Notes under the pieces: model-generated
Told to the model about the DNA's origin: nothing
Database searches by the model: none
What the model saw: the letters and a program-made list of their open reading frames with translations, nothing else
In this document: piece by piece, positions 31,455-34,233 of the stretch
Layout of the letters: every line of letters starts with the position of its first letter
Position numbering within the stretch: the first letter of the stretch is position 1
Translations under genes and position numbers: made by a program
From: Streptomyces indicus
Lineage (GTDB): Bacteria; Actinomycetota; Actinomycetes; Streptomycetales; Streptomycetaceae
Assembly: GCF_900100315.1 (NCBI RefSeq)
Contig: NZ_FNFF01000001.1
Coordinates: 1 to 64,000, forward strand
Length of the DNA stretch: 64,000 nt
Reading direction: 5' to 3'

Positions 31455-32384
31455 TCAGAACCGGTCGCCGTCGCGTTCCGTGCGCTGTCCGTCCACCGAG
31501 ACCGAGGCGGCCTCGTAGACGACGGTGGAGCTCATGGAGATTCCCTTGCAGGTCAGTTGGCGCGCCGGCGTCCGACGGGAGCGCACCTCCACGTCGTAGA
31601 CGCTCGCCCGCGGGGTGCGCTCGCGCAGGCGGACGTGCCAGTGGTCGCCGTCGCGCGAGGTGTGCTCGACCGCGTAGTGGTGCCGTCCCGCCGGACCGAA
31701 GCGGGCGAGCAGCGCGATGACCGCGGTCTGCTGCGGCGGGAAGAGGTTCGTGTAGCCCCGCAGATGCTCGGCGTGCACGCGGTCGGCCAGATGCTCCTCG
31801 ACGACCGCGACGGCGGAGGCGGCGTCGAGGTTGCCGTAGTACACGCCGTCGGGTGCGACGACGACGTTGGCGGCGAACCTGTCGCCCCCGATGTGCGTGC
31901 ATTCCCAGACCAGTTCGGGCCAGCGCTCGCTCAACGCCCGGGCCACCGGCCGTCCCCGCACGGCACAGCACACGTCGTGCAGGCCGTGGGCGCAGACGAG
32001 GACGACGGGCGGAGCGGCGCTGTCACCGGGTGCGGCGAGGGCGTCGACGATGCCGCCGAGGTCCCGGTCGTGCGTCCAGGTGCCCCAACTCTGGCGGTGG
32101 GCGCCCTCGTTGTCGTGGTGCAGCACGGCCCACCGCCGGGGTCCTTCGGGGGTGTGCCGGCCGTGGCGGCGGATCAGGAGGATGCGGGCCCGCAGCGCCT
32201 GGGCGGCGGAGAACACGCGTTGCCGGGTGCCGGGTTCGAGCGGAAGGCCGTCGAAGCCGTTGGGCGGCCAGCCTCCCCGGTACTCGATGAGGATCCAGGT
32301 CGTGCCGTATGGTGCCGTGCCCGCGAGCGGATCCTTCCGCTGCCTCGCGGCTTCGGCGCAGAAGAACCCGGGGGACTTGGTCAT
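31455..32384 (-). CDS. Sucrase/ferredoxin-like (thioredoxin-fold) protein
   Basis: 309 residues from ATG 32384; GTG 32391 is an alternative. Family signature of Suc_Fer-like proteins: VCAHGLHDVCCAVRGRPV (C131, C139, C140) and CTHIGGDRFAANVVV (C162, H164), likely ligands of a [2Fe-2S] cluster in a thioredoxin-like ferredoxin fold. Such proteins may donate electrons. It begins 10 nt after the stop of the JmjC oxygenase gene, so the pair is almost certainly cotranscribed, and it could keep the oxygenase iron reduced. That role is inference. Confidence 0.88.
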   Translation of the reverse strand: MTKSPGFFCAEAARQRKDPLAGTAPYGTTWILIEYRGGWPPNGFDGLPLEPGTRQRVFSAAQALRARILLIRRHGRHTPEGPRRWAVLHHDNEGAHRQSWGTWTHDRDLGGIVDALAAPGDSAAPPVVLVCAHGLHDVCCAVRGRPVARALSERWPELVWECTHIGGDRFAANVVVAPDGVYYGNLDAASAVAVVEEHLADRVHAEHLRGYTNLFPPQQTAVIALLARFGPAGRHHYAVEHTSRDGDHWHVRLRERTPRASVYDVEVRSRRTPARQLTCKGISMSSTVVYEAASVSVDGQRTERDGDRF

Positions 32385-32394
32385 CGCCCCCACG

Positions 32395-33648
32395 TCACGA
32401 TCCGTCGGGCACCGCTACGCCCGCGCGCAGCAGCCGTTCGGCGAGGCCGAGGCCGAGCTCGTACGCGGCGTGCGGGCGGCCGTCCAGCAGGACGGTCACC
32501 GCCGGCAGCTCATCCTCGGGGAAGTCGAGCCACCCCGCCCGGGTGCGCAGACGCCGCCCGTCCAGGCGTGCCTCCAGGGCCTCGCGGAGCCGGACCTGCG
32601 TATCGGGGGTGAGGCCTTTGAGGGCCGCGAGCTGGGCCAGTGGTCCCAGCGGGGCGGGGCGGGCCTGGGCGCGCCGGGCGCGGTGGAACAGCGGTGCGGG
32701 ATCGGTCTCGGTCAGGGCGGCGACGAGGCGTCGGCGGACGAGGTCGAGGTCCGCGCCGGGGCCCTCGGCACCGAGTGGCAGGGAGGCGCGCATCTCGGGG
32801 TCCTCGCGCAGCAACGCCAGGGCGGACTGGGCGAGTTGTTCGGCCAGCGCGTGGCGCGTCCAGGTGTGGACGCCGAGTGTCAGGTGGATCGACACGGCGC
32901 CCTGCGCCTGGGCCGCGTGCAGCCAGCCGCGCGGCAGGTAGAGGACGTCGCCCGGTTCGAGCACCGTGTCCAGGTACGGATCGTCCTTGGCCGCCTGCGC
33001 GACCGCCGCGCGGTGGTCGGTCCAGGGCTGGTCGCGCAGCGGGTCGGGGTGGACGGGCTCGTGGATCATCCAGCGCTTGGTGCCCGCGATCTGGAGGACG
33101 AAGACGTCGTGGACGTCGTAGTGGTCGTCGAACCCGCGGTTCTGCGGCGGTGTGATGTAGGCGTTGGCCTGCACGGGGTGTCCGAGTTCGGTGCCGAGGC
33201 GGGCGGCGAGGTCCGCCACCGGCTCCCAGGTGCGGTGCAGGGCTTGCAGGACGAGGGTGGCGCCGTCCGCGAAGCTGCGCCACAGGGCGGTGTCGTCGAG
33301 CTGGTCGCCGATCGATGCCCCGACACCCGCCGGGGACGTGAACGAGGCTTCCGGAAGCGTGGCTCCGTCCTTGGCCACGCGGAGGAACGGGGTCCGCAGA
33401 CCGCGGCGGGCGATGAGCTCGTCGACGGCGTCGGCGGAGAACAGGTCGCCGAAGTCGTCGGCGGCGCGGGTGAGCAGCGGCGCGCGCGACCAGTGGTCGC
33501 GGGCGAACTCCTCGCGGGTCAGGCGCGTCAGGCGTCCGAGCGGGACGCCGCCGCCCGGCTGGGCGTCGGCGTCCCGCTGTTCACGGGGAGGCGTGCTCCG
33601 CTGTTCACGGGGAGGCGTGCTCCGCTGTTCACGGGGAGGCGTGCTCAA
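32395..33648 (-). CDS. JmjC/cupin_4 2-oxoglutarate-dependent oxygenase (ribosomal-oxygenase-like)
   Basis: 417 residues from TTG 33648, chosen because AAGGA sits 8 nt upstream and no ATG or GTG follows before the conserved domain. After three STPPREQR repeats (about residues 2-25) comes a JmjC domain of the NO66/MINA/YcfD class: facial triad H176-x-D178 (DDHYDVHD) and H244 (LPRGWLHAA), likely 2-oxoglutarate Lys191 (GTKRW), then a C-terminal winged-helix-like region as in ribosomal oxygenases. Family members hydroxylate His or Arg in protein substrates. Directly follows a His-containing repeat protein; the stop codon of that gene overlaps this ribosome site. Confidence 0.92.
   Translation of the reverse strand: MSTPPREQRSTPPREQRSTPPREQRDADAQPGGGVPLGRLTRLTREEFARDHWSRAPLLTRAADDFGDLFSADAVDELIARRGLRTPFLRVAKDGATLPEASFTSPAGVGASIGDQLDDTALWRSFADGATLVLQALHRTWEPVADLAARLGTELGHPVQANAYITPPQNRGFDDHYDVHDVFVLQIAGTKRWMIHEPVHPDPLRDQPWTDHRAAVAQAAKDDPYLDTVLEPGDVLYLPRGWLHAAQAQGAVSIHLTLGVHTWTRHALAEQLAQSALALLREDPEMRASLPLGAEGPGADLDLVRRRLVAALTETDPAPLFHRARRAQARPAPLGPLAQLAALKGLTPDTQVRLREALEARLDGRRLRTRAGWLDFPEDELPAVTVLLDGRPHAAYELGLGLAERLLRAGVAVPDGS
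33574..33645. repeat. Three perfect 24-bp tandem repeats at the oxygenase 5' end
   Basis: CCGCTGTTCACGGGGAGGCGTGCT copies at 33574-33597, 33598-33621 and 33622-33645 are identical (unit split here only for description: CCGCTGTTCACG then GGGAGGCGTGCT). In frame they encode STPPREQR three times at the N-terminus. Copy number could vary without frameshift. Confidence 0.95.
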
Positions 33649-33659
33649 ACGCGGCGTCC

Positions 33660-33977
33660 TTACTGGTCCGCCGCACCGTCGGCACCGCCGTCGTGGACGC
33701 CCGGTGTACCCGCGGCGCCACCGTCGGCCGGTCCCTCCGCGCCGCCGTCGGCTCCCCCGTCGTGGACACCCGGCGTGCCTGCGGCACCACCGTCGGCCGG
33801 GCCTTCCGCCCCGCCGTCGGCGCCGCCGTCGTGGACGCCCGGAGTCCCTGCGGCGCCACCGTCCGCGGGCCCCTCCGCTCCGCCGTCGGCTCCCCCGTCA
33901 TGGACGCCTGGCGTGCCCGCGGCACCGCCGTCGGCGGGGCCTTCGGTCCCCATCGGGTCCTGCTCGGGGTTCGTCAT
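33660..33977 (-). CDS. Four-repeat Gly/Ala/Asp protein, likely oxygenase substrate (BatC-like)
   Basis: 105 residues with a strong AGGAGGAGAC before ATG 33977. A short leader MTNPEQDPMGT is followed by four 23-residue repeats starting at residues 12, 35, 58 and 81, each containing EGPADGGAAG, TPGVHDGG and a final AD segment. No Cys, Lys, Arg or aromatic residue occurs, and each repeat has one His. No signal peptide. The next gene, a JmjC oxygenase, starts 11 nt after the stop. Similar repeat proteins in streptomycetes are annotated BatC-like or hypothetical, as I recall. Candidate hydroxylation substrate or peptide precursor; this role is inferred from context. Confidence 0.85.
   Translation of the reverse strand: MTNPEQDPMGTEGPADGGAAGTPGVHDGGADGGAEGPADGGAAGTPGVHDGGADGGAEGPADGGAAGTPGVHDGGADGGAEGPADGGAAGTPGVHDGGADGAADQ
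33675..33944. repeat. Four 69-bp coding repeats, divergent at third codon positions
   Basis: Units at 33876-33944, 33807-33875, 33738-33806 and 33675-33737 (last one partial). In the GTPGVHD segment, Thr is ACG/ACT/ACG/ACA, Gly is GGC/GGG/GGC/GGT and His is CAT/CAC/CAC/CAC for units 1-4, with the same amino acids throughout. Confidence 0.95.
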
Positions 33978-34233
33978 GTCTCCTCCTGGAAGTCGACGGT
34001 CGGGAAGGGACGGGAGCGTCGAGTACCCGTGCGCCCCCGTTTCATCACCTTCCTCACCAAACTCACCCACTCGGCTCCGGGCAGCAACCGGAGCACCGTG
34101 GCTTCGGCGGCCTTCCCCTCGCGCTTCCGGGCAAGATTTTTGCCCCGTATTCGGCGATTAACGGCCGTATTGCCGGTTACTGGGTCCGTACGGCCGGCAA
34201 ACGGCCCGACACCGACGAACAGGAGGCAGAACC
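33978..34233. promoter_or_regulatory. Divergent region, repeat-protein operon / DJ-1 gene
   Basis: 256 bp with a locally AT-richer stretch (34130-34180, AAGATTTTTGCCCCGTATTC). An inverted pair TTGCCGG (34170-34176) / CCGGCAA (34194-34200) lies 34-64 bp before the DJ-1 gene. It should carry promoters for both units. Confidence 0.5.

Follow-up and report, generated by a model that had tools for sequence, protein, structure and literature searches.

We analysed a 64,000-nucleotide window of the Streptomyces indicus genome (contig NZ_FNFF01000001.1, positions 1 to 64,000), with attention to three genes on its minus strand that form one operon: a gene for an Asp-rich repeat protein, followed by genes for a JmjC_2 oxygenase and a Suc_Fer protein, with spacers of 11 and 10 nt. 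The repeat gene (33660..33977, (-)) has a strong Shine-Dalgarno sequence, AGGAGGAG, ahead of its ATG (33980..33987, (-)). It encodes 105 residues and is the predicted oxygenase substrate, with homologous open reading frames (ORFs) standing beside JmjC genes in other genomes. Its first 11 residues, MTNPEQDPMGT (33945..33977, (-)), are a candidate leader and precede four 23-residue units of the sequence EGPADGGAAGTPGVHDGGADGGA. Unit 1 lies at 33876..33944 (-); units 2 (33807..33875, (-)) and 3 (33738..33806, (-)) are identical to it in protein whilst carrying 13 and 7 synonymous codon differences from it, respectively; and unit 4 (33669..33737, (-)) has one Gly-to-Ala change. In pairwise comparison, synonymous codon differences number 7-13 among units 1-3, where no non-synonymous one occurs; unit 4 set against the others gives 8-12 synonymous and 1 non-synonymous. 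As the DNA of the units has diverged whilst the protein of units 1-3 is unchanged, the repeat protein is a real, selected product, and the synonymous-only divergence shows repetition maintained at the protein level with no fresh DNA duplication.

The repeat protein matches no Pfam, NCBIfam or PADLOC family at E <= 0.001. An anti-phage defence system was rejected, since 0/3 cassette proteins match PADLOC models at this threshold. A protein search with the repeat protein returned 70 matches, many of which are tandem-repeat relatives, all seen without their genomic context. Some of these relatives (P0014, P0062, P0064) are labelled 'BatC protein', a label not traceable to a function, and in one metagenomic ORF on an 854-base contig (P0027) an apparent JmjC start is joined to repeat sequence, which may be an assembly artefact or a fusion.

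The oxygenase gene (32395..33648, (-)) begins at a TTG, 11 nt past the repeat-gene stop. Its product scores 100 bits against Pfam JmjC_2 (PF08007), exceeding the gathering cut-off of 22, and Pfam, alignment and model together describe a ROX-type JmjC oxygenase with intact Fe(II)/2-oxoglutarate ligands (H-x-D...H). This triad, H176/D178/H244 (H151/D153/H219 in 392-residue numbering), is invariant in 36 aligned sequences, and there are seven invariant Arg (R60, R65, R114, R215, R262, R305, R330). The predicted model resembles NO66 over ~370 residues, to the C-terminal end, with the JmjC and C-terminal domains in the NO66 arrangement; among solved structures, those of the His hydroxylases NO66 and MINA come nearest. 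Its invariant Val108 aligns with Arg297 of NO66. The C-terminal part of the protein (model residues 310-392; 32398..32646, (-)) falls inside the NO66-aligned stretch that reaches the C-terminal end, which in an NO66-type protein is presumably a winged helix, and may bind the peptide or its leader. The N-terminus contains a 24-nt direct repeat in three copies (33577-33648, (-); STPPREQR x3), where a single similar copy (STPPHELR) is present in L001, a close relative; the three copies may thus reflect a local expansion or a true start other than the TTG.

The Suc_Fer gene (31455..32384, (-)) was assigned from Pfam and conservation, with 66 bits against PF06999 (cut-off 34.9); its ATG at 32384 sets the 10-nt gap. 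A predicted thioredoxin-like [2Fe-2S] ferredoxin domain covers residues 125-211 (31752..32012, (-)) and is present in the predicted model. C131, C139, C140 and H164 are invariant in 48 sequences and all lie inside this domain, and the product is predicted to be a [2Fe-2S] protein. Apd1 and Aim32 are themselves Suc_Fer or thioredoxin-like [2Fe-2S] ferredoxins; in place of the conserved HxGGD motif of our Suc_Fer, Apd1 presumably has HxGGH. The window protein shares the ferredoxin-like domain and conserved Cys/His with thioredoxin-like [2Fe-2S] ferredoxins such as that of Aquifex (1m2a), but differs in having extra N- and C-terminal parts and a recurring JmjC partner. Thus far the genes are as they had been described in a sequence-only reading of this window (a four-repeat, 105-residue protein, a JmjC enzyme with an intact triad and a Suc_Fer protein at 11 and 10 nt), a description that Pfam, alignment and sequence bear out. 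That reading had also taken the linkage of the repeat and JmjC genes in other genomes as its own refutation test.

In all 19 JmjC loci that we found in a species-level genome collection, the repeat gene immediately precedes JmjC (one, L006, is cut by a contig edge, with the repeat tail visible). In 18 of them Suc_Fer lies directly downstream, and the nineteenth stops inside the JmjC gene. A scan that begins from JmjC favours close relatives; therefore, we reversed it with a JmjC-blind DNA pattern for EGPAD-x-GA in 246 genomes of the class. Matches were found in 24 genomes, of which 12 contain a tandem-repeat ORF, and a JmjC gene adjoins it in 12/12. The remaining 12 contain scattered matches, and neither a tandem-repeat ORF nor a JmjC gene lies within the 1.5 kb fetched (for genome G252, one of its two scattered matches). 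Three of these (L068, L069, L072) have frames with three scattered D-x-G-A that are not in tandem, and three of these scattered-match genomes (G114, G129, G143) have the cassette elsewhere, with precursors outside the pattern. A backwards control pattern matched in ~35 genomes, once each, and single matches therefore carry no weight.

At E <= 1e-40, a JmjC profile matched 66 rows in 65 of the 246 genomes. The scores fall into two clearly separated sets, 40 genomes reaching at least 319 bits and the rest no more than 214. Upstream of JmjC, the upper 40 have a D(G/S)G-repeat ORF in 37 cases, another Asp-rich ORF in two (L135, L136) and neither in one (L130). The linkage anticipated by the sequence-only reading is thus kept in 12/12 JmjC-blind and 39/40 JmjC-based genomes, the latter count including the two Asp-rich variants. 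The third gene of that reading, a Suc_Fer with the predicted thioredoxin-like [2Fe-2S] domain, is likewise present in 31/40, starting -7 to +52 nt from the JmjC stop. Ten of the 26 lower rows were fetched. Six have Suc_Fer, five of them with an Asp-rich small ORF upstream and the sixth beginning at a contig edge. Among the four that lack it, three have a peptide of 35-45 residues with an Asp-rich end upstream, and L145 has nothing similar. Among 61 relatives, the listing gave 44 JmjC matches, of which we fetched 30: the cassette is present in the seven with at least 48% identity, and the 23 other fetched loci have neither repeat gene nor Suc_Fer. Moreover, in a phylum sample of 198 genomes, eight from other classes match JmjC at E <= 1e-60, giving nine loci. 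Seven of these have Suc_Fer, and a small Asp-rich ORF precedes JmjC in eight, the ninth lying close to a contig edge. Suc_Fer counts derive from a profile built from trimmed frames, with which BLAST concurs for L001-L026, and L158 starts too close to a contig edge for judgement. The precursor comparison below uses a chosen set of 75 loci, 64 with Suc_Fer, to which five lower-scoring loci were added for having Suc_Fer; counts free of such selection are given by the 40. Taken together, these data establish a conserved three-gene cassette carried by many actinobacteria, recurring in Streptomycetaceae, Micrococcaceae, Brevibacteriaceae, Nocardiaceae, Nocardioidaceae, Dermabacteraceae and elsewhere in the class and phylum.

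We compared all ORFs of at least 100 residues in 48 loci. The only families found in more than four of them are the three cassette genes and alternate or antisense frames over these. Four outside families are each common to 3-4 loci, not all of them closely related (L008/L014/L015/L018, L011/L013/L133, L095/L096/L137 and L014/L015/L094), and others are common to close kin. No exporter, peptidase or second oxidase recurs with the cassette in this comparison. Chance linkage is set aside by the JmjC-blind search and the flank comparison. We also considered whether the cassette is plasmid-borne: 117 plasmid records match JmjC, all below 60% identity and none covering 80% (15 rows listed), and at such identity and coverage they look like distant paralogues.

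A quick tree built from 85 JmjC rows places the DGGA-type enzymes in one group of 60, L130 included (Shimodaira-Hasegawa-like approximate likelihood ratio test, SH-aLRT, 99), and the DxD-type enzymes fall mostly in a second group of 13 (SH-aLRT 97). The window's clade of 25 (SH-aLRT 100) mixes Streptomyces, Rhodococcus, Arthrobacter, Brevibacterium, Brachybacterium and Aeromicrobium, and the cassette is present in just 3/22 same-genus genomes of the class sample. Its distribution is therefore patchy and it probably moves between families.

Distant JmjC paralogues that lack Suc_Fer (L031, L034-L038, L040, L046-L049 and L141) adjoin a different set of peptides. These are encoded just upstream of JmjC, are 43-58 residues long, have leader-like N-termini and end in Asp-rich stretches such as SDGGGTGRSDGND, SDNTGGKSDMNDT and SDITSSQNSAGDDGDNRD. 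An aldo/keto reductase follows the JmjC gene in 4/4 of these loci scanned (L031, L036, L046, L141). Two further paralogues, L144 and L146, are accompanied by a 35-residue peptide ending DSDGTDSSSDFI and DSDGTDGSSDFI, respectively, and nearby lie genes for a DrrA-like ATP-binding cassette (ABC) transporter (L144) and an FhuF-like ferric reductase (L146). The loci with 43-58-residue peptides are possibly a further peptide family, and both sets together suggest a larger family of putatively Asp-directed JmjC enzymes, with relations left unsure by the long branches in this part of the tree.

Precursor ORFs were picked automatically from the 75 loci, yielding 73, of which two were mis-picked (a wrong ORF for L008, and L130, which has no true precursor); none was picked for L120 or for L006, at its contig edge. 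Separate inspection showed that L006, L008 and L120 do have the repeat gene. Extra N-terminal residues are carried by the window's row, L003, L007, L009, L016, L094, L107, L112, L123 and others. Past residue 18 the composition of the 73 ORFs is 18.3% Asp, 0.8% Asn and 2.8% His, with Gly the commonest core residue at 33.8%, and there are about 7-32 Asp per precursor. The residue preceding DGGADG in 37 precursors is H in 94 cases, A in 91, Q in 16, S in 6 and X in 1. No His occurs after residue 18 in 20/73 ORFs and none anywhere in 17, the other three (L113, L121, L142) having His before residue 18. Cores from other classes contain no DGGA repeats; they read like DGDGTDGTDGDSGDG, TDTDTTDSTDTDTTD or DADASDADAAD, with Asp at every second to fourth position, few Pro, and no His in 7/8 (L152 has one near its end). 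Across these sequences the constant feature of the precursors is Asp among small residues. At the N-terminus, a loose D[DE]DIxT-like motif is found in 32/73 precursor ORFs, where 200 shuffles gave 5.9 on average, and may be a leader; in much of the window's clade the N-terminus is short and xxPEQDPN-like.

We therefore propose, with a probability of roughly 0.57, that the JmjC enzyme oxidises the repeat protein, most likely by repeated beta-hydroxylation of its repeat Asp, and that Suc_Fer keeps the iron reduced. The parts of this proposal differ in strength: the repeat protein is very probably the substrate, Asp is the likely site of oxidation, and for Suc_Fer as the reductant of JmjC the odds are about even. 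A small putative precursor gene linked to a modifying-enzyme gene, one of the marks of ribosomally synthesised and post-translationally modified peptides (RiPPs), is seen in the same 12/12 and 39/40. In the proposed mechanism, the short N-terminal region, which resembles D[DE]D[IM]xT in many relatives and PEQDPN in the window's clade, would be a leader held by the JmjC C-terminal domain, whilst the NO66-like Fe(II)/2-oxoglutarate enzyme would move along the core hydroxylating Asp, and Suc_Fer would supply the electrons by which its iron stays reduced. The product would be an acidic, hydroxylated and possibly metal-binding peptide that stays in the cell, where it may remain given that no linked exporter or peptidase gene recurs. 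Beta-hydroxyaspartate is a metal ligand in siderophores, and metal binding is thus a natural guess for the product. Possible, though rather doubtful, is the broader proposal of a widespread ribosomal peptide class with (DGGA)n, (DGT/DGD)n and (DAD)n cores, in which leader-guided, processive Asp oxidation by an NO66-type JmjC with a dedicated [2Fe-2S] partner would yield poly-beta-hydroxyaspartyl peptides that bind iron or calcium intracellularly or read out Fe(II), O2 and 2-oxoglutarate.

Several observations weigh against hydroxylation of Asp as set out above. His, Arg and ornithine are the residues that known enzymes with this fold hydroxylate, and we know of no member of the NO66/JmjC_2 fold that acts on Asp. 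The JmjC enzyme has a net charge of -12, which does not favour an acidic substrate, although it does have the seven invariant Arg. Gly, Ala and Ser/Thr likewise persist in the cores, with which C-alpha oxidation of Gly or other chemistry may also be compatible, and the leader motif is missing in the window's clade and in 41/73 precursor ORFs overall. Nine of the 40 close homologues have no linked Suc_Fer, which is therefore not strictly needed in cis. Lastly, L130 (genome G131) has neither Suc_Fer nor repeat gene, and its genome contains no DGGADGGAD-coding match; upstream of its cassette-type JmjC is a 95-residue acidic ORF of another kind.

The sequence-only reading, partly supported by these results, had named Asp and Pro as alternatives but placed the modification on the His of each TPGVHDGG unit, much as NO66 and MINA act on ribosomal-protein His. 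This would suit an enzyme whose nearest solved structures are those two hydroxylases and whose invariant N137 and Y139 align with what we take to be the pocket Asn and Tyr of NO66; moreover, among the 116 H/Q/S cases at the xDGGADG position, 94 are H. However, the other 22 are Q or S, and the 20/73 ORFs that do without His after residue 18 (17 without any) and the Pro-poor and, in 7/8, His-free cores of other classes speak against both residues. On conservation, His and Pro were rejected as sites, and we regard either as improbable. A different chemistry on the same substrate, such as cross-linking, C-alpha oxidation of Gly that cleaves the chain, or the turning of Asp into aminomalonate, is unlikely but deserves consideration. 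The abundance of Gly would allow it, and the aldo/keto reductase behind the distant JmjC paralogues would fit a carbonyl intermediate there, although no second oxidase or peptidase recurs with the cassette in the 48 loci and the predicted JmjC fold is that of simple hydroxylases. Aminomalonate is reported, in work cited in PMC13097080, to be made from Asp by the graspetide-cluster oxygenases SmaO/SmaX.

It is also conceivable, if distinctly unlikely, that the repeat protein is no substrate at all and instead assists the oxygenase and the Fe-S protein, as an acidic metal carrier or regulator. Its low-complexity acidic sequence, the two predicted iron proteins encoded beside it and the lack of a recurring exporter or peptidase would all be in keeping with such a role. 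However, the 4-residue Asp register looks substrate-like, as do the variation of unit number under protein-level constraint and the position of distant JmjC paralogues behind short leader-core-like peptides with Asp-rich ends. That the JmjC enzyme is a ribosomal-protein oxygenase with incidental neighbours is highly improbable: it has the fold and Pfam family of NO66, MINA and YcfD, and the close homologue L130 stands without repeat gene and Suc_Fer, yet linkage holds in 12/12 and 39/40 despite differing flanks, whilst 0/23 distant JmjC loci of relatives have either partner. We retain repeated beta-hydroxylation of Asp by JmjC as the favoured explanation.

If Asp is the target, this would be, to our knowledge, the first enzyme of its oxygenase branch to hydroxylate Asp, and it would do so at many sites within one chain. 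Bacterial relatives of the human ribosomal oxygenases gain a likely non-ribosomal substrate, encoded next door, and the poorly understood Suc_Fer proteins gain a partner and hence a testable job. Given that the cassette-type oxygenase is found in 40/246 class genomes, 39 of them with a repeat or Asp-rich gene, its role is unlikely to be marginal.

NO66 (RIOX1), MINA53 (RIOX2) and YcfD have ribosomal proteins as their substrates, which they modify at His or Arg. The window JmjC resembles them in its PF08007 (JmjC_2) domain, H-x-D...H triad and predicted model; unlike them, it is fixed beside a non-ribosomal Asp-repeat gene, mostly with a Suc_Fer gene. Among other 2-oxoglutarate enzymes, a dioxygenase is reportedly able to macrocyclise RiPPs. 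In the literature searched, in which few subscription papers were covered, we found no description of an Asp-repeat precursor with JmjC and Suc_Fer, and the peptide words GGADGGA, DGGADG and GADGGAD matched only an unrelated pig-breeding paper. The statement in the sequence-only reading that no such pathway is known thus stands for the cassette but not for JmjC action on RiPP precursors, which is published. BipG and BpmG of biphenomycin biosynthesis are JmjC ornithine hydroxylases of a RiPP precursor (PMC12707348, PMC12257519). Like the proposed cassette enzyme they hydroxylate a ribosomal precursor, in vitro or on co-expression, but according to the available parts of these papers the precursor has a short FRF core in place of a repeat protein and the cluster is larger, with a multinuclear non-haem iron-dependent oxidative enzyme (MNIO), a radical S-adenosylmethionine (SAM) enzyme and a protease; Suc_Fer is not mentioned in those parts. 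For eukaryotic JmjC proteins fused to a RiPP recognition element (RRE), the nearest JmjC homologues in bacteria, at ~30% identity, are described as sitting in RiPP-like contexts (PMC12710340, 2025). The PF08007 proteins with RRE-like folds in that study would fit a leader-binding C-terminal domain here, although its accessible portion mentions neither a type of precursor nor an Asp repeat nor a Suc_Fer partner.

Tailoring of ribosomal peptides by JmjC enzymes is therefore already known, whilst the literature searched describes neither the Asp-repeat precursor nor the Suc_Fer partner. Beta-hydroxylation of Asp in a ribosomal peptide, as proposed for the cassette, is itself on record for SmaO/SmaX, in whose graspetide cluster Asp is hydroxylated and converted to aminomalonate (cited in PMC13097080), and for PesHI, which hydroxylates one named Asp, Asp21 (PMC13060819). 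As far as these systems are described in the portions available, SmaO/SmaX act at the peptide N-terminus within a graspetide cluster, whereas the cassette precursors differ from the substrates of both in presenting about 7-32 Asp in a low-complexity repeat. There is a real chance that the cassette represents a new class; should the predicted hydroxylation hold, its product would be an undescribed kind of modified bacterial peptide.

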